Positions 50 to 30,539 of a stretch of DNA of 32,197 bases are shown piece after piece (within the stretch, counting starts at the first letter, position 1; each line of letters begins with the position of its first letter). A program made the translations under genes and the position numbers. Origin of the DNA: Candidatus Desulfatibia profunda (GTDB lineage: Bacteria; Desulfobacterota; Desulfobacteria; Desulfobacterales; UBA11574); NCBI GenBank assembly GCA_014382665.1, contig JACNJH010000102.1:1-32197 (forward strand), given 5' to 3'. The notes under the pieces were generated by a model. The model did no database searches. It had not been told where the DNA came from and saw nothing but the letters and a program-made list of their open reading frames with translations.

Positions 50-205
50 CTATAACGGGTTTTTGACATCAGGGAATAGCTCTTTCTTCAATTTTTCGAT
101 TACGTTGTCATCAGCGATTTTGCAAATGTAATTTAGGGCTTTTTTTGTACACCATAATATCCCTGAGGCTTTTAGCAAAAATATAAAGTCCGGTGTCATT
201 TCCAT
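50..205 (-). CDS. possible 51-aa cassette ORF
   Basis: A 51-codon reading frame starts at ATG 205 with a purine-rich GGAAGGGAA directly upstream and ends with TAG at 50-52. The product starts MEMTPDFIFLLKASG and contains two cysteines and a lysine-rich C-terminal half. It lies immediately after the attC-like site at 228-288 in the orientation expected for the next cassette of the minus-strand array. I do not recognise the family. No attC could be made out to its left, so the cassette end is either degenerate or outside the window. Small unknown ORFs are common in integron cassettes; that it is translated is inference. Confidence 0.35.
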   Translation of the reverse strand: MEMTPDFIFLLKASGILWCTKKALNYICKIADDNVIEKLKKELFPDVKNPL

Positions 206-227
206 TTCCCTTCCATTTTTCTCAGGA

Positions 228-288
228 ACACAACGTTGCTAATCAGCCGCGCGGTTCTTTTGTGTCGGCTGAATTAGCCTTGTTAGGC
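228..288 (-). other. attC-like recombination site 1
   Basis: Reading the minus strand, GCCTAAC (282-288) begins the site and an imperfect GTTGTGT core (228-234) ends it. Between them GCTAATCAGCCG (238-249) and CGGCTGAATTAGC (266-278) form a stem with one extrahelical base, the feature that directs strand choice by integron integrases. The site lies about 65 bp beyond the stop codon of the DUF2726-like gene, as expected for its cassette. The distal core departs from GTTRRRY, so confidence rests on the stem, the GCCTAAC core and the three similar sites that follow. Confidence 0.65.
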
Positions 289-352
289 GCCATTTTGTGT
301 ACCCACGATAGTTTCATTCCCCGCGTTGTGCTTCCGAGGCTTTAGCGCTCCT

Positions 353-1255
353 TTAGCCGACTCCTTTCCGCAAAGACATTATTGTCTTGAATCGACCTTC
401 GAAGTCCTTGACCCGCTCTTTGATCGACAATAGTGGAAGCGCGGGCTCCGCACCACGAACAACCGCGCTCACATTATTCTGTAGTTCGTTCAGGACTATT
501 CCCCTAATTGCGAACTGCACCCAGCTACCAAGATTCTGCTGCTGCATAGCAGTTTCAGCTATGGTGCCCAGTTGGTCGGATGTTTCGATCCAAGATATCG
601 CCCTCAGAGTTCGGTTGTTACCCTCCGCTGTAATCCAGTTCGGGACGTAGTCCGGAATCTCCCCTGATCTGAACATTCGCCCGAGTTCTGCACGGGCATG
701 CCTTTCAAGCTCCAAGGATCGAGTACCCGACTTTGTCCTCACTGATACAAACATAGGATCAAAAACTGAGTCCTCTATGGGAATTCTTCCTGCTTTAACA
801 TCCTCATCCCAGCCTCGTTTCACGAAGAAGACTGTGCAAAACCATCGAAGTAAATCCCAACTTGAAAATGCGCGAGAGAGGTACTTTCTATTAATTCGCA
901 GCAACGGTAGCTCGAAGCGGTCGCATAGCATGTTTTTCATTCCGTCACGTTTCTGATCGTCCGGCGCGGAATGACCGCTGCCATCAAACTCGACCGCGAA
1001 CAGAGATTGATCAGTGGAATCAGTTACCACAAAGTCAAAGTGGGCCTGCAGAGCATACCGATAGTGTTCGTTGTCGATCCCGCTGCACTCTATCGGAAGA
1101 ACGTCAGCAACACGGACTTTCGCGTAGACCTTTGCATTGAAGTCATCGCACACTTCTCGGAGCCGCTGATCGGTAACGGACTCGGGCAGGTTCAAGAGAC
1201 GCTTCAGCATCGTTGAATGGGTTCTCGTTCCTCTAAAGTCTGTGTCGTCTGGCAA
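353..1255 (-). CDS. DUF2726-like nuclease-fold protein (integron cassette gene)
   Basis: This 300-aa protein carries a DUF2726-like core at residues 70-121: a hydrophobic strand with D74, then FAVEFDG (E89, D91), QKRD, K107, C111 and PLLRI. The acidic and lysine spacing resembles PD-(D/E)XK nucleases, to which DUF2726 is usually linked; catalysis is inferred. The rest of the chain is unrecognised. The TTG start at 1255 is preferred because a strong AGGAGG lies a few bases upstream; an ATG at 1210 is the alternative and has no clear ribosome site. It is the sole gene of a cassette whose attC is at 228-288. No signal peptide or membrane segment is evident. It could be a defence or DNA-processing protein. 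Confidence 0.7.
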   Translation of the reverse strand: MPDDTDFRGTRTHSTMLKRLLNLPESVTDQRLREVCDDFNAKVYAKVRVADVLPIECSGIDNEHYRYALQAHFDFVVTDSTDQSLFAVEFDGSGHSAPDDQKRDGMKNMLCDRFELPLLRINRKYLSRAFSSWDLLRWFCTVFFVKRGWDEDVKAGRIPIEDSVFDPMFVSVRTKSGTRSLELERHARAELGRMFRSGEIPDYVPNWITAEGNNRTLRAISWIETSDQLGTIAETAMQQQNLGSWVQFAIRGIVLNELQNNVSAVVRGAEPALPLLSIKERVKDFEGRFKTIMSLRKGVG

Positions 1256-1285
1256 ATCGCCTCCTGCGCTCTATCAGTGCTTGAC

Positions 1286-1359
1286 GCCTAACGTGGTGCT
1301 GACCTGACTGGGGTGGAGCGCCAGCGTAACCCCAGTCAGCGTCCAGCATATGGTTAGGT
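1286..1359 (-). other. attC recombination site 2
   Basis: This is the clearest attC of the array. On the minus strand it runs from ACCTAAC (1353-1359) to GTTAGGC (1286-1292), both matching the RYYYAAC and GTTRRRY cores. An 11-bp perfect inner stem is formed by CTGACTGGGGT (1304-1314) and ACCCCAGTCAG (1329-1339), with an outer TGCTG/CAGCA stem (1297-1301/1344-1348) and unpaired bases between. Its length of 74 bp is in the usual range. It starts 7 bp past the stop of the GIY-YIG-like gene, so it closes that cassette. Confidence 0.85.
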
Positions 1360-1365
1360 AATAAA

Positions 1366-3018
1366 TTACTCTGAAATAGATCTCTCAGTGTCAGAAATAG
1401 TCTGTTCAACCGCGGCAACAATAGTAGAGAGGCTTGCGCGAAAGAACTCGCGATTTTTCTTTACTCTATATTGTTTAAGGCGAAGATGGACCTCTTTCTC
1501 CACCAAACTGCAATTAGCAACTTCCCAGCTAGCCAGTACCTCAAATGGTAGCGGCACACCCGTTGAGGTGCCAAGTTCATGTGCCCGCTCTTTCGCACTT
1601 CGTCGCGTTAGGCCAACTTTATAAATATCGTTGCCATGTGCGGCGGACCGAACAATATAGATTGCCCCAGGATCATCACCTTTTGGAGCTCCACGAATAT
1701 TTTGCATGATAAAAGATTCTGGGCTACTTGTTGAATAACTATCAACTCGTTCAACCCATGTTTTTCCTACAATTGAATTCCCGCCTTTGTCAGTTCCAAT
1801 CTTATTTGGTTCCAATGGTTTCCAGAATCCAGTAGATTCGAAAGAAAAATTGGGTGGGTCAATTATTCGCTGGCCAACTTGGACTAAATTATTAGTATCG
1901 GCGCTACTCAGACATTTGACAATTCGGTGCAAATGATATGCATCCTTTCCGAATTCTTTAGTAGCTTTCTTTATATGGTGTTTTTGCCTGTTGATGAATA
2001 ACTCGGTTACAAATTTAGAGCCTACTACTCTATCAGGTTCAGCAACAAATATGATTGGCAAATATATAATAGACATAAGTGCTGAAAACAATTGACCATA
2101 CCTGTTTAACTCACTTAAGGATTTTTCAAGAATGTCATTTCGCTTTTCCTTTGTAAGCCCCGGAAATGCTTCTTTATCATCCGTGTTTACAAGATAGCTA
2201 TAACCGATATCAATGTTAACATACCTTACATCGTGCTTTTTGGTTTCAAGGTTTAATCGGGTAAGAATTAATACCTTAGAGAATCCTGCCATACCATCTA
2301 AGTAACGATCTCGGATCGAAAGATCTGGACTTGGTGCAAGGTTTTCACGACCTTGGAAGGGTTTACCGTCTTTAAATTCTTTTTCAGCAGGTATCTTGGA
2401 ATCAGGAGGGTTTGATGGATTTTCACCTGCTATAAGAATTACAGATAATTCATTCTCGTGCCGGATTAGTGATACTCCTGCAATTGCAAGGTTTGAGCCC
2501 TCTGTTGAGATTGCAAACTCACCAGTATCACCGGCTATGTCGAACGAATATATTAATCCTTCCTCCATTATATCTACTAATATTTTAGGATCATCAGGTA
2601 TTTTGTGTTCAGCTGTATACCAGTCAAAATAATCGTGCAACCTCAACAAATGTTCACGTTCTTCCCTTATATCGAATACCTTAAATTCATTATTAAAGGA
2701 GAGGAAGGCTTCAACTACATTGAATGATGACGGGAGAGAATGAGGGCCATAGCTAGTAAGGCGGTTTAGATATTCTAAGAAATAATGACGTAGAACGGTA
2801 CTCATTCGAAAACCAGAACAGCCCTCCATACGTAATAAAACAAAAAGGGGAAGACGTCTATTCAACTCACGAATTTTTTGCCGAATTCCTATGTCCATTT
2901 CGGCCAATCGAGAGAGATATGCTTGACCTATCGGATCAGCTTTAGGGTGCCATGGTGGTAGCGGCATCCTCGAAGATAAATCTCTCATTCGGCGTTTATG
3001 TGGCATTCCAAGACTCAT
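1366..3018 (-). CDS. large cassette protein with C-terminal GIY-YIG/T5orf172-like domain
   Basis: The 550-aa product has a long N-terminal region (1-440) that I do not recognise and a C-terminal domain at about residues 450-535. That domain shows AIYIV (452-456), YKVGLTRR (466-473), VPLPFEV and a conserved-looking E507 followed by a basic helix, the layout of the GIY-YIG-related T5orf172/MUG113 domain, which binds or cuts DNA. At 1.65 kb it is large for an integron cassette gene. The ATG at 3018 is kept; a second ATG at 3006 is possible, and neither has a good ribosome site (AAGGA is about 16 bp upstream). No membrane segment is seen. A defence or nucleic-acid-processing role is inferred from the domain and the neighbouring DUF2726 and DUF6602 genes. 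Confidence 0.7.
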   Translation of the reverse strand: MSLGMPHKRRMRDLSSRMPLPPWHPKADPIGQAYLSRLAEMDIGIRQKIRELNRRLPLFVLLRMEGCSGFRMSTVLRHYFLEYLNRLTSYGPHSLPSSFNVVEAFLSFNNEFKVFDIREEREHLLRLHDYFDWYTAEHKIPDDPKILVDIMEEGLIYSFDIAGDTGEFAISTEGSNLAIAGVSLIRHENELSVILIAGENPSNPPDSKIPAEKEFKDGKPFQGRENLAPSPDLSIRDRYLDGMAGFSKVLILTRLNLETKKHDVRYVNIDIGYSYLVNTDDKEAFPGLTKEKRNDILEKSLSELNRYGQLFSALMSIIYLPIIFVAEPDRVVGSKFVTELFINRQKHHIKKATKEFGKDAYHLHRIVKCLSSADTNNLVQVGQRIIDPPNFSFESTGFWKPLEPNKIGTDKGGNSIVGKTWVERVDSYSTSSPESFIMQNIRGAPKGDDPGAIYIVRSAAHGNDIYKVGLTRRSAKERAHELGTSTGVPLPFEVLASWEVANCSLVEKEVHLRLKQYRVKKNREFFRASLSTIVAAVEQTISDTERSISE

Positions 3019-3058
3019 CTATCGTTTCATTCCTTCATGAACAAAAATCTAATAGAAA

Positions 3059-3124
3059 ACCTAACGGCGCGCCTGACCAGCGGGCGCGCTTTTTAGCCCG
3101 TCTGCGTCCAGGCGCAGGTTAGAG
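3059..3124 (-). other. attC recombination site 3
   Basis: On the minus strand the site runs from CTCTAAC (3118-3124) to GTTAGGT (3059-3065). The halves GCGCCTG and CAGGCGC, and GCGGGC and GCCCG, pair to give a long interrupted stem. The 66-bp site begins about 20 bp after the stop of the two-TM coiled-coil gene. The first core has C where a purine is expected, which is within known variation. Confidence 0.75.
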
Positions 3125-3145
3125 GGATTTCGCATCAGCGATCCC

Positions 3146-3988
3146 TTACGTGAACTTGACCGTAGAGACGAGCCTTTGAAAGACCTCCCGAGATTCATTA
3201 ATCAACTCCTCACACTCATGCAGAGCAAAAATAAAGAGCCGGGCCTGATCCTCGTGGAAGACCGAAATGCCTTCCATGATGTTAAACTTCCCCTGAACGT
3301 CCTTATGGGGATAGCGAGCGACGCAATGGATTCCGCGGGCATTGTCGACGAATGTGGGCTCGAACCTAAGACCGCTAGCTTGAAGATGGGTCTTCACAGG
3401 TAAGAAAGGGCTTTTCAAAAACTCATCGTCAGGCTCAAAGGCGCCATCTTGTCCTTTGGCTCCCCTCTGTTCAAGAAGGACTTGGAATTCTGGACTGGTT
3501 ACGTGAATAGCAGTTATGTTTATGTTGCCTTGAAAATACAACCGGTCCATTTCACCTGGCTCCAGAGGCCTCATGTACATTCCAACTTGTGTTTCCGGAT
3601 TTAAGATCCAGGTTTTGGGCCGCGCAAACCCAAGTCGAAGGTCCGATGAATATACAAGCTCGAAGCCTTCAGGACAACGGATCTCTGGGAACTGTGCGGA
3701 CTTGAGGCGCTGATTCTCCGCCTCAAGCTCCTTAATCCTCAGATTGGTTTCCTTCACCGTTTCGTCCCGTTCCGCTTGATCCGCATTCTTCTTTATCGAC
3801 AGGAAGACTCGGGAAGAAACTAGAAGAAATATGACGAATCCGGCAGCAGCACCTCCAAGCCTCATCTTCTGACTTTCGAACGTGCCCGTTGACTCCAGTG
3901 CCCCATAGAGAAGAATCGCTGCCAAGAGGTTGCAGCCGAAGAGAAGTAAGAACACGGTAATGGGTAGCGTTGACCAATTTCTCGTCAT
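3146..3988 (-). CDS. two-TM coiled-coil membrane protein of unknown function (cassette gene)
   Basis: The start is placed at ATG 3988 because AGGAGGG lies 10 bp upstream and because a longer frame would run through the attC and into the preceding gene. The 280-aa product has two N-terminal membrane segments (about residues 8-31 and 44-64), a charged heptad-like stretch rich in E, K and L (about 68-98) likely to form a coiled coil, and a soluble C-terminal domain of about 180 residues that I do not recognise. It is probably anchored in the inner membrane with the large domain in the cytoplasm, though topology is inferred. It is one cassette of the array, with attC at 3059-3124. No function is assigned. 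Confidence 0.65.
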   Translation of the reverse strand: MTRNWSTLPITVFLLLFGCNLLAAILLYGALESTGTFESQKMRLGGAAAGFVIFLLVSSRVFLSIKKNADQAERDETVKETNLRIKELEAENQRLKSAQFPEIRCPEGFELVYSSDLRLGFARPKTWILNPETQVGMYMRPLEPGEMDRLYFQGNINITAIHVTSPEFQVLLEQRGAKGQDGAFEPDDEFLKSPFLPVKTHLQASGLRFEPTFVDNARGIHCVARYPHKDVQGKFNIMEGISVFHEDQARLFIFALHECEELINESREVFQRLVSTVKFT

Positions 3989-4026
3989 GTAGTCATGCCC
4001 TCCTAGGTAAGGTTCTATACTGAGCC

Positions 4027-4088
4027 CTCTAACGTTGAGTTGAGGGGCGGCGAGGTACGAGCCGTCCCTCTCGAATGATTTGTTATAT
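4027..4088 (-). other. attC-like recombination site 4
   Basis: GAGGGGCGGC (4042-4051) and GCCGTCCCTC (4061-4070) form a ten-position stem with one G-T mismatch around a 9-base loop. On the minus strand the outer cores are ATATAAC (4082-4088, one mismatch to RYYYAAC) and GTTAGAG (4027-4033). The first core overlaps the TAA stop of the DUF6602-like gene, a common arrangement in cassettes. It is degenerate in the outer boxes and therefore less certain than site 2. Confidence 0.6.
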
Positions 4089-4820
4089 TTTACCTGGTCC
4101 AACAATGTAGGGTATCCATGATCTTTCGAAACCCTTGCCTTCGGTGATTTTTTCTTTGTGTGTAATATTGTCATAGCAAACATTAATTAATACAGAGAAA
4201 TACGTGAGAGTTTCAAGATATTCGGGGCCTTCAATCAGATCCACTTTGTTGGAATTGTCATATCCTTTTCTTTTAAGAGTGAATTTCCCGATTATACAGA
4301 TAGTCATCAGATGAGGTATCTCTTGAAACCATTCCGAAAGCGTTTCTTTCCCAACTTTTGTTTCAAGCCCAATCAGACTGAATAGTATTGGAAGTGATTG
4401 CCTTGTTTGCTTCGCTACATCGTTTGGTTTCCGCACGGCAACAGGCCTAAGTTTTTGGCATTCAATAAACTGATTTTTTAGCTGGTCCAAGGTTTCTGAA
4501 TCAACGGTCGATTTCATCTCTATCGCTGCCAACGCTGTCTCTACTGGAACCAGAGCTACATCTTTCATGAGGGCGATAGAAGGTATTCTCTTTCTTTCAG
4601 CTAGAATAAAATCTATTTGAGGGGAGATGCTTCCAAAACAGTCACAGATAAACCCAGAGCCCACAGATATGTCAGGAGGCATGATATCGCCTAAAAAGGC
4701 TCGAAGATAGGATTCACGAAGAGCCCCCTTTGTTGCGCTGTGAGAGATTGATGAAGATTCGCTTATAGAGTCGGACAGTCGTCGAAGCCTTGAAACCAGG
4801 ACCTGCTGTATTCTACTCAT
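4083..4820 (-). CDS. DUF6602-like protein, possible PD-(D/E)XK fold (cassette gene)
   Basis: The ATG at 4820 follows GAGG by about 8 bp and is preferred over an upstream ATG at 4868. The 245-aa product has an N-terminal helical part (SHSATKGALRESYLRAFL, about 26-43), then ISVGSGFICD (51-60), PQIDFIL with D70, and AAIEMKS with E101-x-K103. This order matches what I recall of DUF6602 proteins, and the D...ExK arrangement resembles a restriction-endonuclease-like core; nuclease activity is inference. It is the most upstream recognisable cassette gene, closed by the attC-like site at 4027-4088. No second partner gene or integrase is found upstream. There is no signal peptide or membrane segment. 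Confidence 0.65.
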   Translation of the reverse strand: MSRIQQVLVSRLRRLSDSISESSSISHSATKGALRESYLRAFLGDIMPPDISVGSGFICDCFGSISPQIDFILAERKRIPSIALMKDVALVPVETALAAIEMKSTVDSETLDQLKNQFIECQKLRPVAVRKPNDVAKQTRQSLPILFSLIGLETKVGKETLSEWFQEIPHLMTICIIGKFTLKRKGYDNSNKVDLIEGPEYLETLTYFSVLINVCYDNITHKEKITEGKGFERSWIPYIVGPGKI

Positions 4821-5066
4821 CTTTTGTCCTCGAAATATAACTAGTGAGTGGATAGAAAAAACGCGCAATATTGCCGCATAACTAAAAGAGCAACTTGCTG
4901 TCTAATTCAAGTAAATTCAATTTGTTATAATGCTTCCAAAGGGATATTGAAACCGGAAAAACGAGAATTTTTTCTTCAATATTCCAATATGCGAGAAAAA
5001 CTTCTTAATATTCCTGATATTACGGGTGTTTTATAGAAAAAAGCTAAAATTTTAAAAAAGGAAACT

Positions 5067-5155
5067 TTGGGAACGTCCTTGAAGAATTGGTGTGCTATGA
5101 AGTGACAGCAAGAGATAGTCGATATAGGTACAGGAGAGCCAGGGGGCGTTCCCAA
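5067..5155. repeat. 89-bp element bounded by 12-bp inverted repeats
   Basis: TTGGGAACGTCC at 5067-5078 is matched by GGGCGTTCCCAA at 5144-5155, identical as inverted repeats except for one position. The 65 bp between them has no obvious further symmetry. The layout suits a small non-autonomous element or a structured transcript; GGGAACGTCC-type ends are reminiscent of REP-associated transposase elements, but no transposase is present and that link is weak. Confidence 0.4.
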
Positions 5156-5516
5156 TATCCTCCCTCCTCCAGGGTAGATTATCCATAATTGAATATTGTT
5201 TATAAATCAAGGGAAAATATTAGATGTTACAATATGTTACAAAAGAGGGGGAGCGGCAGCAAAATTGTGTAGTTATTACACACCCCAAAAGGCACTAATT
5301 TTAATATATGCTAAATATCAAATGGTTATCAATTTGCTTTATGATTTAAAAGACTTCAACGACTTTTCGACCGTATTGAAAAGCAGCGGTGTTGACTTAT
5401 TTATGGATATTCCAGATAGAAATGTCCTAGGAGTTGCGTCCTGTGAGGTCAAGTTGGGTGATGCCCGCAAATTTTATGCAACTGAAGCGTTCATTTGCCC
5501 CGGTAACGGGATTTAC

Positions 5517-5592: not shown

Positions 5593-5985
5593 TCACGAGG
5601 TCTTCCATCCCCTCTGTGCGTTTACTTCAGGCATGAGATAGTGTTTGGTATTTAGCGTAAAGATTGATCCGCCGGATTTGATGACAGTGGCCGCAAGGAT
5701 TGCATCGTTAATATCCGTTCCATGGCGCGGATTCCATTGGCGATAAATTTTCCCGGCCATATCAATAACGCCTTGGTCCACAGGGGCCGTCTGAAATTGT
5801 GATAAAAACAGCAAGGTTGCCTCTTCCTCCTCCGGTCGCATGAAAAAGACCACCTCTGCACGTTGCATGGCACCGGTCCATAGATCAAACTTATCCTTAT
5901 CACGCAGCCTTTTCAAAAGATTCAAAGCCTTACATTCCCCGCGCAGATGCCAAATGAGAATGTCCGAATCGATGTACGCCTTCAC
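5593..5985 (-). CDS. vapC: VapC-like PIN-domain ribonuclease toxin
   Basis: This 130-aa PIN domain is expected to cleave RNA with Mg2+ and to be neutralised by the upstream antitoxin. The acidic residues of the family are in place: D6 (YIDSD), E44 (RAEVV), D91 and D94 (GTDINDAILA), with TLNTKHY (110-116) in the C-terminal motif. The length is normal for VapC. Translation starts at GTG 5985, overlapping the antitoxin stop codon (GTGA), so the two are translationally coupled. Whether it is active is not shown, but no key residue is missing. The module sits between the cassette array and the proC-AOR operon, a typical stabiliser or accessory position. Confidence 0.9.
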   Translation of the reverse strand: MKAYIDSDILIWHLRGECKALNLLKRLRDKDKFDLWTGAMQRAEVVFFMRPEEEEATLLFLSQFQTAPVDQGVIDMAGKIYRQWNPRHGTDINDAILAATVIKSGGSIFTLNTKHYLMPEVNAQRGWKTS

Positions 5986-6239
5986 CGTTTATACCTTTCC
6001 TGCGATCGGCGCATGGCGGTTTTAATGCGCTCGACCGTTTTGGCGGCCGGTTCATCGCGTTGCCAGCAACCCAATGTGTGGGCAAAAATATCGAACTTAT
6101 GCTCCAGATCGACTTTTTGAGCATAGTGCCGAATGGCATTTTCAATCACGGCTTTTTTTGACGTGCCCAACTTTTTTGCCAGCAGGTCAATTCGCCGGAC
6201 CACAGCTTCATCAATGCGGGTTGACATGATTTTGTCCAT
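5982..6239 (-). CDS. ribbon-helix-helix (CopG-like) antitoxin of the VapC pair
   Basis: The 85-aa product begins with a short basic strand and STRIDEAVVRRIDLLAKKLG, the ribbon-helix-helix DNA-binding pattern, followed by KKAVIENAIRHYA and a C-terminal tail that would wrap the toxin. The ATG at 6239 is chosen because GGAGGTGTCA immediately precedes it; the ATG at 6251 would lie upstream of that ribosome site. The antitoxin precedes the toxin gene and overlaps it by four bases. RHH antitoxins normally repress their own promoter together with the toxin, and the direct repeat at 6258-6281 is a possible operator. Confidence 0.85.
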   Translation of the reverse strand: MDKIMSTRIDEAVVRRIDLLAKKLGTSKKAVIENAIRHYAQKVDLEHKFDIFAHTLGCWQRDEPAAKTVERIKTAMRRSQERYKR

Positions 6240-6257
6240 TGACACCTCCAATTACAT

Positions 6258-24209: not shown

Positions 24210-24998
24210 ATGACTATGCGTAATGAAACAAAATCAAAAATAAACCGCCTTATCAGTCAGTGGCCGAGAGGGACGCCCGCTACCGCATTCTACTTGAACA
24301 CAGAGGGCTTCAGCCATGATCTCCTTACGAAATACAAAAAGAGCGGCTGGGTTCAGTCCTTCGGAAGAGGTGCCTATATCCTCTACGGAGACAAAGTGGA
24401 ATGGCCCGGAGCCCTTTATGCCCTTCAAACCCAACTGGGCCTGAACGTACACCCCGGGGGAAAGACTGCCCTTGAGCTAAAAGGATATGCCCATTACCTG
24501 ACCACTGGTAAAAGAAAGGTATTTCTGTACGGAAAACAAGGTCAGGTTCTGCCGAACTGGTTCAAAGGGGAGCGTTTAGGGGTAGATATCGTCATGACCC
24601 GGACCAATCTTTTCCCGGAGGACAGTCAGGAGGGTCTATCCGAATTCAAGGAAAGGGACTTTTCCATAAAGATATCTTCCCCCGAAAGGGCAGCCATGGA
24701 GATGCTTCACCTGGTGCCGGGAAAGGTCGGTTTTGACGAAGCATTTCTGATCATGGAAAACCTTGCTACCCTCCGATCGGAAATAGTCCAGAGACTGTTG
24801 GTCATGTGCCGGTCCATCAAGGTCAGGAGGCTTTTCATGTTTATGGCGGAAAAGCATGACCATCCATGGGTATCCGACTTGGACGTTGCACGGCTTGATC
24901 TGGGCAAAGGAAAGCGAATGATCGTCCCAAAGGGGAGGTTTGATAAAAAATACCAGATCACCGTCCCCAGAGACTATTACGAAGAGGGGGAGGGATGA
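24210..24998 (+). CDS. abiEi: AbiEi-type antitoxin/repressor of a type IV TA system
   Basis: The 262-aa protein begins with a winged-helix domain (about 1-75: KINRLISQWPRGTPATAFYL and GWVQSFGRGAYILYGD) followed by the larger C-terminal antitoxin domain (LSEFKERDFSIKISSPERAAMEML). This matches AbiEi, which represses the operon and counteracts AbiEii without binding it stably. The start at 24210 could also be 24216. The gene overlaps abiEii by four bases. Other AbiEi-like proteins have the same layout, so the family call is firm and the subfamily is not. Confidence 0.88.
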   Translation: MTMRNETKSKINRLISQWPRGTPATAFYLNTEGFSHDLLTKYKKSGWVQSFGRGAYILYGDKVEWPGALYALQTQLGLNVHPGGKTALELKGYAHYLTTGKRKVFLYGKQGQVLPNWFKGERLGVDIVMTRTNLFPEDSQEGLSEFKERDFSIKISSPERAAMEMLHLVPGKVGFDEAFLIMENLATLRSEIVQRLLVMCRSIKVRRLFMFMAEKHDHPWVSDLDVARLDLGKGKRMIVPKGRFDKKYQITVPRDYYEEGEG

Positions 24999-25912
24999 AA
25001 GACACGGTCTTCTTCAAACAGGCGGAATTGCTTTTAAGAATTCTGCCGTTGATATACAAAGAAGAAGTGTTTGCCTTGAAAGGAGGTACTGCAATCAACT
25101 TTTTCGTACGGGACCTCCCTCGCCTATCCGTGGACATCGATCTGACGTACCTTCCTGTAAATGACAGGGATTTTGCCCTGAATGAAATCCGTAGCATTTT
25201 GTTACTGATATCCGAGGGAATCAAGAAGAGGATACCGGGTACAGGAGTCATCCCGAAGAGAATTCATGGGACCGAGATCGTAAGAGGCCTGATTGTCGAC
25301 CGCGAGGGTGTAACAGTTAAGATAGAGCCAAACCTGGTTCTCAGGGGGTCTGTGTACCCGTCCGAAATAAAAACGCTATCGAAAAAGGCTCAAGATCTCT
25401 TCGAGTTGTCTCTTCAAAGCCGTACCCTTTCACCATATGATTTGTATGCCAGCAAGATCTGTGCCGCCCTTGATCGCCAGCACCCGAGGGATCTTTTCGA
25501 TGTTCATTTGCTTCTAAAAAGCCAAGGTCTTAAGCCCGAAACAAGGAAGGCTTTCGTTATTTATCTTGTCAGCCATCCAAGGCCCATGGTTGAGATCCTA
25601 AGTCCTCAGCAGAAAGACATAAGAGATATCTTTGAAAAGGAATTCAAGGGTATGATAGCCGAAAGCATCACATTTGAGGCACTGGAAACGACAAGAAATG
25701 AACTGGTTGCGATACTTCGAGAAGAGTTGACACCTGATGAAAGGAGCTTCATTGTATCAATAAAGCAGGGCCAACCCCTTTGGGACCTTCTCGAACTTGA
25801 AGGGATTAAGGACTTGCCGGCCGTCAAATGGAAGCTCTTGAATATCTCAAAAATGGACCCCGCAAAACATCGAAAGGCCGTTCACAAACTTAGAGATTAT
25901 CTGGGTGTTTGA
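24995..25912 (+). CDS. abiEii: AbiEii-type nucleotidyltransferase toxin
   Basis: The 305-aa product has the nucleotidyltransferase signature ALKGGTAINFF (about 27-37) and LPRLSVDIDLTYL with D47 and D49 as metal ligands. This is the AbiEii/AbiGii toxin family, which adds nucleotides to tRNA acceptor ends or otherwise uses NTPs to stop growth and gives phage-abortive infection. No motif residue is missing. It is co-translated with AbiEi through an ATGA overlap. The module lies between two direct-repeat copies (24038 and 26248), which suggests it arrived as a unit. Confidence 0.9.
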   Translation: MKDTVFFKQAELLLRILPLIYKEEVFALKGGTAINFFVRDLPRLSVDIDLTYLPVNDRDFALNEIRSILLLISEGIKKRIPGTGVIPKRIHGTEIVRGLIVDREGVTVKIEPNLVLRGSVYPSEIKTLSKKAQDLFELSLQSRTLSPYDLYASKICAALDRQHPRDLFDVHLLLKSQGLKPETRKAFVIYLVSHPRPMVEILSPQQKDIRDIFEKEFKGMIAESITFEALETTRNELVAILREELTPDERSFIVSIKQGQPLWDLLELEGIKDLPAVKWKLLNISKMDPAKHRKAVHKLRDYLGV

Positions 25913-27508: not shown

Positions 27509-28528
27509 TTAAAAATAACCCGTTATAGGGTGGCCGCAATAACCGCAGCAGATTCCGTCTAAATGGTACTGAATGATCCGATAATTCACCCGTTCTATGA
27601 GCAGCTTACCGCATGCCGGGCAGTGAGTGTTCTCGGCAGGATGGCCCGGAACATTACCCAGATAGACATATTCCAGGCCGGCCTCGAGGCCGATCGCTCT
27701 GGCCTGTTCCAATTTGGCCACTGGAGTGGGGGTAAGATGAGCTAGCCTGAAGTGGGGTACAAACCGGGTCACATGCCAGGGTGTCTCTGAACCCAGGCAA
27801 TCACAGATCCATTTTGCCATCTCTTTTAACTCTAACTTTTGATCGTTAATTCCCGGTATGAGATTGGTGATAATCTCCACATGCATGCCCCAGAAATGCT
27901 TGGCGCGCTCCAAAATTTTCAGGATCCCGTCGAATCCATTAATATTTGCGATACGTTTGTAGGTTTTGTCCGAAAACCCTTTCAGGTCAGCACAAAAGGC
28001 ATCCAAATAGGGACCAATGAGGTCAAGCGCCTCCACCGTTATGTATGCGTTGGTCACATAGTTTGTGAGAAACCCAGCCTCATGCGCCATCCTTGCAGAA
28101 TCCAATGTATACTCGAACCACAGGGTCGGCTCGTTGTATGTCCAGGAAATTCCTTTACAATGGCCGTCACGTGCAAGCTGGACGGATTCCTCTGGAGTGA
28201 CGAACCGCAGAGAAGGCAGCTCTTTTTTCACGTTAGCATGGGCAATCTCCCAGTTCTGGCATCCGGGACAGAGGAAGTTGCAGCCTAGGCTTCCCATCGA
28301 AAGCCACTGACTCCCTGGATAAAAATGAAAAAGCGGCTTGATTTCAATGGGTGATATTCTCAAGGAGGACACCCGGCCGTATATGAGGGAGAAAAGCTTG
28401 CCGTCCAGGTTCTTCCGCGTCCTGCAGTAACCGCTCTTGCCAGAGGCAATTTTGCACCGCCGTTGGCACAAGTCACACTGAACGGCATGATTGTCCAAAG
28501 GTTTGTAAAGAAAAGCTGGGTGCATCAT
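27509..28528 (-). CDS. amrS: AmrS-like radical SAM enzyme (AmmeMemoRadiSam type)
   Basis: The 339-aa protein has an N-terminal cysteine cluster (C18, C21, C25, C35: CDLCQRRC...GYC), then the radical SAM site GCNFLCPGCQNW (C83, C87, C90) and a C-terminal zinc ribbon (CPACGKLLI and CCGYCG). This is the architecture of the AmmeMemoRadiSam radical SAM enzyme, related to PflA. Its chemistry is not settled. The Memo and AMMECR1 partner genes are not next to it. It follows another radical SAM gene by 20 bp in the same direction, so the two form an operon. The ATG at 28525 is an equal choice of start. Confidence 0.85.
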   Translation of the reverse strand: MMHPAFLYKPLDNHAVQCDLCQRRCKIASGKSGYCRTRKNLDGKLFSLIYGRVSSLRISPIEIKPLFHFYPGSQWLSMGSLGCNFLCPGCQNWEIAHANVKKELPSLRFVTPEESVQLARDGHCKGISWTYNEPTLWFEYTLDSARMAHEAGFLTNYVTNAYITVEALDLIGPYLDAFCADLKGFSDKTYKRIANINGFDGILKILERAKHFWGMHVEIITNLIPGINDQKLELKEMAKWICDCLGSETPWHVTRFVPHFRLAHLTPTPVAKLEQARAIGLEAGLEYVYLGNVPGHPAENTHCPACGKLLIERVNYRIIQYHLDGICCGYCGHPITGYF

Positions 28529-28547
28529 TCCCTAAAAAGGATCAATG

Positions 28548-29348
28548 TTAGGGGTTACTGTTTTTGTGCCCTGGGAAAACAAAATATTTGAGAACAAAAT
28601 TGTATGAAAGGCCTGCCTTTATCAATCGTTCCTTCACCGTTCCGTAAAGCACGAGCTCTTCCACCTCGAATTCTTCGAATTCTTCATGGATCTCTCTGAG
28701 CCTCCTCCTGAAAGCTTTGATGTTTTCAGGACTCGAGAAACTGACCATAACCGCTGGATGCGTGGTCACATTGAAGCGGGCCAGATTTTCCAGGGCCCCC
28801 AATTGTAGTCCGAAGCCTGATGAATCTGCTCCGGTCAACCGGGAAAATTCTGCCTCTCCGGTCCCCTTCACGCTCACCCGAACGTAGAGGTTCCCAAACC
28901 TGGATAGATCCCGGGCATAGGTTGAGTCATGCCCAATCAGGATACCATTGGTCTCAAGAATGAAGCGGATATCTCCCGGAATCTGCTCAAGGACATGGAG
29001 AAGATGATCCCTCGCTAGGGTCGGCTCGTTCCCGCTGATCCTGACCTGTCTGAACCTCTTTTTGTAGGCAATGGTTGTTAGCTTCCCGGCCACCTGCTGT
29101 GGCGAATAAAACTTGCCGTATCGGCCAGGCCTCACGACCTTGTCCCAAGACCAGCAGAACAGACAGCGGAGACAGCACCCGAGGCAGTCTGCGGTTCCGA
29201 TCCCTCCATAGAATCTGGCCGGCCGGAAACGGTAATACTTTCTCTGATTGCCCCTGCACACGATCTGGGCTGTCTCTTCAGCTCGCTCTATTGGATCGTA
29301 AAATTTTTTGATTCCATTCCCAATATGGCCTGAATCCGCGTTTAACAT
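28548..29348 (-). CDS. radical SAM protein of unknown function
   Basis: The 266-aa product carries CCLRCLFCW (C58, C62, C65), the CX3CX2C motif for the SAM-binding [4Fe-4S] cluster, followed by ISGNEPTLAR (the GGE-like motif) and FILETNGIL. An extra cysteine (C55) precedes the motif. The C-terminal part has charged helices (HEEFEEFEVEEL). AAGGGA lies 8 bp before the ATG. It heads a two-gene operon with the AmrS-like gene. It resembles the stand-alone radical SAM proteins of archaea and anaerobes whose substrates are unknown to me. Confidence 0.8.
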   Translation of the reverse strand: MLNADSGHIGNGIKKFYDPIERAEETAQIVCRGNQRKYYRFRPARFYGGIGTADCLGCCLRCLFCWSWDKVVRPGRYGKFYSPQQVAGKLTTIAYKKRFRQVRISGNEPTLARDHLLHVLEQIPGDIRFILETNGILIGHDSTYARDLSRFGNLYVRVSVKGTGEAEFSRLTGADSSGFGLQLGALENLARFNVTTHPAVMVSFSSPENIKAFRRRLREIHEEFEEFEVEELVLYGTVKERLIKAGLSYNFVLKYFVFPGHKNSNP

Positions 29349-29486
29349 GATCGAATTCCCTTATAAGTCATTTTACATCGATTCGGATTTGTGATCAAAT
29401 AGAGAAAATAAATCTTTTGCGCTTTCATTCATTAAGGGGGGCACTTAGATTAATTTTCATATTATAGAAAAATTATTTTCTTTGAA
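29349..29486. promoter_or_regulatory. divergent promoter region of the radical SAM genes
   Basis: This 138-bp AT-rich gap separates the two minus-strand radical SAM genes from the plus-strand fusion gene and must hold both promoters. ATATTATAG (29459-29467) could be a -10 region for the plus-strand gene. No firm -35 or ribosome site was found. Confidence 0.4.
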
Positions 29487-30539
29487 ATGGCCGAAGAAAT
29501 CACAATTCAATTAAATGATGAAAGCTTGAAAGTCCCTTCTGGCATAACGGTCAAGAAGGCTCTCCAATTGAGCGGATATAAAGTAACAAAGTTCCCTGAA
29601 AAAGAAGCGCTATTTGTACCTTGTGAAGTGGGTGGATGCTGGAGCTGCGCTGTTCTCATTGACGGAGAACCCAAACCGGCTTGCAAAACTCTCGTAAGAG
29701 ATGGACTTCACATAAATACATCATTACCGGAAAAACATCAGCCGAGAAGGATCATTCATGGCTTCACAGGGCACCCGGTCGGTGGCGTGGGGACACCCTG
29801 GAGGTTGAAGCGTGTCCACACATACATTGAGGTCGCCTGCTTTGCCGCAGGGTGCAATTTCCGCTGCCCTCAATGTCAAAACTGGGACATCACATATAAT
29901 GGCAAGAGCAGGCCCATGACCCCTTCTGAGGCCGCCCGGAGGATGACAGCTGCAAGAAAGGAATTTGGTGTTGATCGAATGGCCATTTCTGGTGGTGAAA
30001 GTACATTGAACAGGGCGTGGCTCATCGGGTATGTGAATGCACTCAAAAGTCTTAATCCCGATGCGGATGCCGGCATTCATATCGACACGAACGGCTCCAT
30101 CCTCACAAAGGATTACATTGATGAACTTATTGATGCGGGCATGACGGATATAGGAATCGATCTGAAAGGCTGCACTACGGAAACATTTATGCGAATTACC
30201 GCTGTCAAAGAGAGAGGGTTGGCCGCGCTTTATCTCTCAACGGCATGGAAAGCTGTGAGATATCTGGCCGAGCGCTATAAGGATTTAATATTCACAGGTG
30301 TGGGGATCCCTTATAATGCAAAGTTGATTTCGCTGGATGAGATCGGCCTTATAGGCAAGAAATTATATGAGATAGATCCTAAGATCCAAGTCTGCGCACT
30401 GGATTACAGACCCGAATTTGAGAGGTTCGATCTTCAAAAGCCCTCTTATGACGAAATGGTGGAAGTACACAATGTACTTAAAGATGCGGGACTCAAAACC
30501 GTTATCTGCCAGACCGATCGCGGCCACATCGGCCCTTGA
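29487..30539 (+). CDS. [2Fe-2S] ferredoxin-radical SAM fusion protein
   Basis: The N-terminal 80 residues form a plant-type ferredoxin domain with cysteines C46, C51, C54 and C66 (PCEVGGCWSC and PKPAC), as in the N-termini of NuoG and formate dehydrogenases. Residues from about 110 on are a radical SAM domain: GCNFRCPQCQNWD (C123, C127, C130), ISGGESTLNR and IDTNGS. The site is close to that of AmrS and PflA. A built-in ferredoxin could deliver the electron for SAM cleavage. The fused order is unusual. The start has no clear ribosome site. The gene is divergent from the other two radical SAM genes. Confidence 0.85.
   Translation: MAEEITIQLNDESLKVPSGITVKKALQLSGYKVTKFPEKEALFVPCEVGGCWSCAVLIDGEPKPACKTLVRDGLHINTSLPEKHQPRRIIHGFTGHPVGGVGTPWRLKRVHTYIEVACFAAGCNFRCPQCQNWDITYNGKSRPMTPSEAARRMTAARKEFGVDRMAISGGESTLNRAWLIGYVNALKSLNPDADAGIHIDTNGSILTKDYIDELIDAGMTDIGIDLKGCTTETFMRITAVKERGLAALYLSTAWKAVRYLAERYKDLIFTGVGIPYNAKLISLDEIGLIGKKLYEIDPKIQVCALDYRPEFERFDLQKPSYDEMVEVHNVLKDAGLKTVICQTDRGHIGP

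Follow-up and report, generated by a model that had tools for sequence, protein, structure and literature searches.

A nuclease-bearing integron cassette array in Candidatus Desulfatibia profunda that probably grew on a repeated, solo attI-like platform

How an array of gene cassettes comes to stand on a chromosome with no integrase gene beside it is the question raised by a locus of Candidatus Desulfatibia profunda. The window analyzed here is the entire contig JACNJH010000102.1 (C102; 32,197 nt), taken from a draft assembly of 3.85 Mb in 293 contigs. Near its left end lie four minus-strand genes, each trailed by a hairpin (Table 1). An earlier interpretation based on the letters alone (the sequence-only reading) had described the hairpins as attC-like and uniformly oriented, and the genes as a cassette array with nuclease-like cargo and without a visible integrase. 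We find that each of these genes belongs to a genuine integron gene cassette, and we conclude that the array probably grew on a solo copy of an attI-like leader that recurs elsewhere in the genome.

The four hairpins are attC sites. A box scan for the pattern R″ (RYYYAAC), L″, L′ and R′ (GTTRRRY), with dinucleotide shuffles as background, recovered all of them independently. The sites of cassettes 2, 3 and 4 met thresholds at which shuffled sequence gave 0.04–0.2 hits per 4.9 kb; that of cassette 1 met only a looser threshold, with a shuffle background of 0.74 per 4.9 kb. A covariance model trained solely on 12 attC sites of class 1 plasmid and cyanobacterial origin placed the same four sites at ranks 1–4 in the window (25.0–31.4 bits, E 1.5e-5 to 5.1e-4), followed by the reverse strand of the cassette 4 site at 15.9 bits and then by noise at 8.5 bits. 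All four lie on the minus strand, each just 3′ of a minus-strand gene, and the arrangement given in the sequence-only reading is borne out by both scan and model, the latter being the check which that reading had called for. The attC of cassette 2 is near-identical to an attC on another contig (C169:1028-1093).

The R″ and R′ boxes of a cassette pair while it is circular; once it has entered an array, its R′ is found at its 5′ end. Because R′ is relocated in this way, a cassette in an array is expected to begin with seven bases complementary to its own R″. All seven positions agree in 4/4 window cassettes (5′-end/R″ pairs GTTATAT/ATATAAC, GTTAGAG/CTCTAAC, GTTAGGT/ACCTAAC and GTTAGGC/GCCTAAC), against just 4–6 of 7 matching bases for boxes that are physically adjacent in the window DNA. 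Across six arrays of the genome, 13 of the 17 testable cassettes matched their own R″ perfectly, and 200,000 shuffled pairings of these 17 gave a mean of 1.0 perfect match and a maximum of 7. Ends that complement their own R″ indicate discrete cassettes joined at G|TT. Each window cassette comprises one gene with its own attC, is bounded by G|TT and has R″ and R′ boxes that are complementary in the circle; all four are genuine integron gene cassettes.

Cassette 1 is immediately preceded by a 230-bp leader that falls just outside the interval treated in the sequence-only reading (50–4820) and was overlooked there. The genome holds four copies, 96–99% identical, on C102 and on three further contigs (C171, C169 and C141); each directly precedes an attC array, and the cassettes differ among the arrays. 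Identity among the copies stops at CTCACTA(G)|TT, a predicted insertion point that can be written CTCACTAG|TT; beyond it the sequence is that of the first cassette. This start is confirmed by the cassette's own R″ on C102, C171 and C141, and at the C169 junction GTTA has been lost through a 4-nt deletion. Since the copies diverge at the recombination point and first cassettes start there, the leader appears to behave as a repeated attI: it receives first cassettes at G|TT and keeps one side conserved, and we describe it as attI-like, a predicted recombination site. It does not adjoin intI on C102 or C171, with no intI found in the 27 kb upstream of the leader on the former or in the 21 kb upstream on the latter. 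The leader was not found in 23 other genomes of the family, as would be expected of an attI, and its exact 33-base core was not found in viral contigs. A literature search returned nothing relevant on repeated or solo attI, which is weak evidence given that most subscription journals lay outside its coverage; as far as we have seen, it would be new for an attI to have been duplicated to several places without its integrase and to have seeded an array at each.

Integrases are nonetheless encoded in the genome. At the curated TIGR02249 cut-off we identified two intI genes, one full-length (C120:18885-19826) and one interrupted near codon 26 (C26:806-1681). Neither lies near an attC; such sites number about 24 in the genome, distributed among ten contigs. 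The absence of a visible integrase thus holds for the window, where none was found on C102, including the leader side of the array, and does not extend to the genome, with its two intI genes on other contigs. By definition the window array, with its four minus-strand sites, is a cluster of attC sites lacking an integron integrase (CALIN). One reservation is that the left contig end falls within a repeated element resembling a miniature inverted-repeat transposable element (MITE), so that the array may extend past base 1. We asked whether the leader could be the attI that belongs to the C120 or C26 integrase and rejected this, as the flanks of both intI genes show no similarity to it.

A second, independent case comes from a complete, one-contig genome of 7.63 Mb (G286) that belongs to another family of the same order and carries five intI genes. 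Its intI-linked attI sites lie at 3.59, 5.89 and 7.25 Mb; the first and last are 98.4% identical across 2,262 bp that take in intI, with the 5.89 Mb site related to them. At 7.1355 Mb (L141:5492-5640), with lut-type genes on one side and, on the other, an array opening with a HicAB-like pair, there is a solo attI of 149 bp, 98.7% identical to the 5.89 Mb attI and without intI. Its first cassette starts with GTTGTGT and carries its own R″, ACACAAC, 681 nt on, a 7/7 match. An intI-free attI copy with a matching first cassette indicates that a used, integrase-free attI exists in a finished genome too.

Based on these comparisons, it is probable that the window array grew on a solo copy of a repeated attI-like platform. 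An integron integrase supplied in trans would fold the attC bottom strands, and circular cassettes would be inserted at the leader G|TT, newest first. Leader copies may have spread around the chromosome by duplication, each seeding its own array. Front cassettes would be expressed, with the NucC-like gene of cassette 1 best placed, and the cassette nucleases would act on invading DNA. Several observations count against this account: no cognate intI-linked copy of the leader was found, no promoter above chance was detected within the leader, two of the leader copies (C141 and C169) are close to contig ends, where assembly could miss an intI, and the genome is a draft of many contigs.

Among the alternatives, the one that survives best, although we regard it as unlikely, is that of an ordinary CALIN, in which a single former chromosomal integron would have lost its intI, or had it carried off by rearrangement, and would survive as a fragment; the arrays would then be inert and the leader an old attI duplicated by chance with flanking repeats. 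CALINs are usually read as degraded integrons, and their counts are inflated by draft assemblies (PMC9024848); in this genome the C26 intI is interrupted and two leader copies are flanked by repeats. However, the cassettes behind the four leader copies are entirely different, which implies that each copy was used on its own, the R-box match is intact at 7/7 in most cassettes, and the C120 intI is full-length. Known CALINs, which can be mobilized in trans by IntI (PMC12444791; PMC9024848), resemble the window array in having at least two attC sites in one orientation and no adjacent intI, and differ from it in that the latter is headed by an attI-like platform repeated at four genome sites.

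Insertion by IntI at chromosomal attG-type secondary sites, with the leader an unrelated repeat that holds a good attG, is quite improbable. Such insertion is established (Loot et al. 2024, as cited in PMC12901181), and other arrays of the genome begin without the leader, for example on C125 after pyrF. Against this, 4/4 leader copies carry arrays, and the solo copy in G286 is the attI of an intI-linked integron, making a duplicated attI a better model than an attG repeat. Insertion at attG sites shares with our case the presence of cassettes outside a canonical integron; it differs in that our case has a conserved leader, repeated in the genome, as its target, where attG sites are scattered and unrelated. 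Finally, a reading of the hairpins as transcription terminators, or as inverted repeats that happen to lie behind unrelated genes, can be dismissed as having next to no probability: gene-trailing hairpins are common, and neither Rfam, which gave no match in the window, nor a terminator scan tests for attC, but the conserved R and L boxes with extrahelical bases, the covariance model scores, the orientation and the own-R-box test all contradict it.

The nuclease-like genes that the platform has probably collected belong to families that are themselves recurrent cassette cargo. We searched 291 genomes of the order with the three nuclease-like proteins of the array and obtained 42 homologues, mostly domain-level matches. 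Eleven of them (3 T5orf172, 6 DUF6602 and 2 DUF2726) have a same-strand attC at −47 to +32 nt of the stop codon, 7 identified by the covariance model and 4 by the R/L-box scan; a twelfth case is weaker. In ten of these genomes the covariance model made about 98 matches in about 49 Mb, or a chance of roughly 0.2% per random gene, and 11/42 is significant at P <1e-9 even at a base rate of 2%. This enrichment indicates that the families are recurrent cassette cargo, not parts of fixed operons, and homologues in other families precede different attC sites and have different neighbors, contrary to the fixed-operon arrangement that the sequence-only reading had named as a refutation. Single-gene nucleases of the NucC-like DUF6602, GIY-YIG and DUF2726 types are thus recurrent integron cargo in this order.

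The product of cassette 1 matches DUF6602 in Pfam (E 5.7e-19) and, in PADLOC, PD_DExK (1.4e-26) and NucC (2.3e-17); it aligns with the Serratia NucC of the PDB over residues 14–154 (E 4.1e-11). At the positions of D73, E104 and K106 of E. coli NucC, which we take to be the catalytic residues of that enzyme, it has D, E and K, an intact D/ExK motif. NucC is a cyclic triadenylate (cA3)-activated endonuclease of the cyclic-oligonucleotide-based anti-phage signaling system (CBASS) and of type III CRISPR systems, and its activation takes it from trimer to hexamer. Cassette 1 resembles it in the retained PD-(D/E)xK residues and differs in that its C-terminal third is unaligned and no cyclase or CRISPR gene is present among the cassettes. 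No full-length close relative was found in viral contigs. AlphaFold2 models from single sequences were too poor for use and were set aside for this protein and for that of cassette 2 (predicted local distance difference test scores of 32.7 and 49.0). The cassette 2 protein has no Pfam family, and a close-relative search of genome contigs and plasmids revealed no relative.

The T5orf172/MUG113 domain of the cassette 3 protein scores 56 bits against a Pfam cut-off of 20 (E about 5e-15). PADLOC matches to PDC-S57 (1.7e-22) and PD-Lambda-1 (5.4e-13) cover this C-terminal domain only; cassette 3 is similar to those systems in its GIY-YIG/T5orf172 domain and unlike them in its N-terminal 450 residues, which they leave unmatched. 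The N-terminal 450 residues are common to GIY-YIG proteins of Agrobacterium and Sinorhizobium plasmids, which adjoin HEPN proteins and integrases and, in the case of one plasmid, also a TIR protein; no relative of this region was found in phages, and a close-relative search of genome contigs and viral contigs gave no full-length relative. For cassette 4, the true start may lie further in than the TTG used here. Pfam confirmed the DUF2726-, DUF6602- and GIY-YIG/T5orf172-like identities that had been proposed from the letters, and the nuclease-like character of the cargo is upheld in addition by the conserved catalytic residues and by the sequence match of DUF6602 to NucC structures.

A role of this cargo in defense is likely. 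The further proposal that the array is a reservoir of phage or plasmid defense is plausible and fits the defense-type genes in other arrays of the genome, which carry an Mrr type IV restriction enzyme (PADLOC 4.8e-55), a CAP12/Pycsar-type TIR protein (2.4e-50), an FRG protein (1.4e-35), HicA and a zeta-like kinase and, by reading, open reading frames (ORFs) resembling BrnTA and further toxin-antitoxin pairs. Most likely, the cargo would serve as an interchangeable stock of single-gene nucleases directed against phages or plasmids. Integrons as stocks of anti-phage genes have been published for sedentary (Darracq 2025) and mobile integrons (Kieffer 2025) and for V. parahaemolyticus (Getz et al.), all as cited in PMC12409362. 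Short single-gene defense-like and toxin-antitoxin cassettes in attC arrays are common to the sedentary integron biobanks and to our case, which differs in having several short dispersed arrays in place of one long one, in belonging to another lineage and in being known from sequence alone.

Table 1. Features at the left end of the window
Feature	Position	Strand	Basis and remarks
MITE-like repeat end	1–55	−	Ends GGGACGTACAT ... ATGTACGTCCC; several genome copies, full copies on other contigs
Fifth cassette start, 51-aa ORF	50–233	−	Sequence reading; own attC not seen
attC of cassette 4	228–288	−	Covariance model 31.4 bits, E 1.5e-5; own R-box 7/7
Cassette 4 gene, DUF2726 (restriction-endonuclease-like)	353–1255	−	Pfam E 4.5e-14; 300 aa from TTG
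attC of cassette 3	1286–1359	−	Covariance model 26.0 bits, E 3.0e-4; own R-box 7/7
Cassette 3 gene, 550-aa protein, C-terminal GIY-YIG (T5orf172/MUG113) domain	1366–3018	−	Pfam
attC of cassette 2	3059–3124	−	Covariance model 25.0 bits, E 5.1e-4; own R-box 7/7
Cassette 2 gene, two predicted transmembrane segments, coiled coil and soluble C-terminal domain	3146–3988	−	Sequence reading; no family
attC of cassette 1	4027–4088	−	Covariance model 25.9 bits, E 3.1e-4; R″ ATATAAC pairs 7/7 with own 5′ end GTTATAT
Cassette 1 gene, DUF6602, NucC-like PD-(D/E)xK nuclease	4083–4820	−	245 aa from ATG 4820; stop codon overlaps R″
230-bp leader, attI-like (putative landing platform)	4832–5061	−	Predicted crossover G|TT between 4841 and 4840
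Second genome-wide repeat, about 273 bp	5058–5330	−	Upstream of leader, not array-specific

Other features of the locus and of the genome's arrays were recorded alongside. The MITE-like element, of about 150 bp, also occurs at C154:4864, C90:20090, C11:122 and C96:4938, and is placed after the last visible cassette in C154 and in the window alike. The second repeat is present at about ten other sites, including one beside the interrupted intI on C26. A PIN toxin and ribbon-helix-helix (RHH) antitoxin pair at 5593–6251 of the window stands between the array leader and core genes and has no attC. Outside the array are an AbiEi/AbiEii type IV toxin-antitoxin pair (24210–25912), a known abortive infection system, and, from reading translations, three consecutive radical-SAM-like genes, two on the minus and one on the plus strand (27509–30539). 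An IS91-like transposase gene, identified by reading, lies between two attC sites of the C141 cassette array (L011:2065-3321). Directly 3′ of pyrF on C125 is a toxin-antitoxin-rich array without the leader, with several BrnT-like and RHH genes by reading (L090:147-3562), possibly an attG-type insertion. Descriptions of integron integrases usually place them under SOS control; in this genome, a perfect promoter box of the sigma-54 type, TGGCACGCCCTTTGCA, precedes the full-length intI by about 70 nt, counted from its likely ATG (L001:1396-1411, C120), and a weaker one, TGGCACGAAAAGTGCG, stands at a similar position before the C26 intI. A sigma-54 box conserved before intI across the family was rejected, being seen only at C120 and weakly at C26.

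In the integron model a single attI lies beside intI, and there is accordingly one well-expressed first position. Our results suggest that an integrase encoded elsewhere can serve several gene-collecting platforms within one bacterium. From two genomes of different families, one of them complete, we put forward tentatively that solo attI copies scattered on one chromosome serve as landing platforms, on each of which a trans-acting integrase would build an independent expressed array, giving several first positions for defense genes. The solo-attI reading opens a simple test, the insertion of cassettes by IntI at a distant solo attI. If it is true, several integrase-free attI sites with arrays of their own would multiply the well-expressed first position, and part of the many CALINs would be explained as used platforms, not debris.

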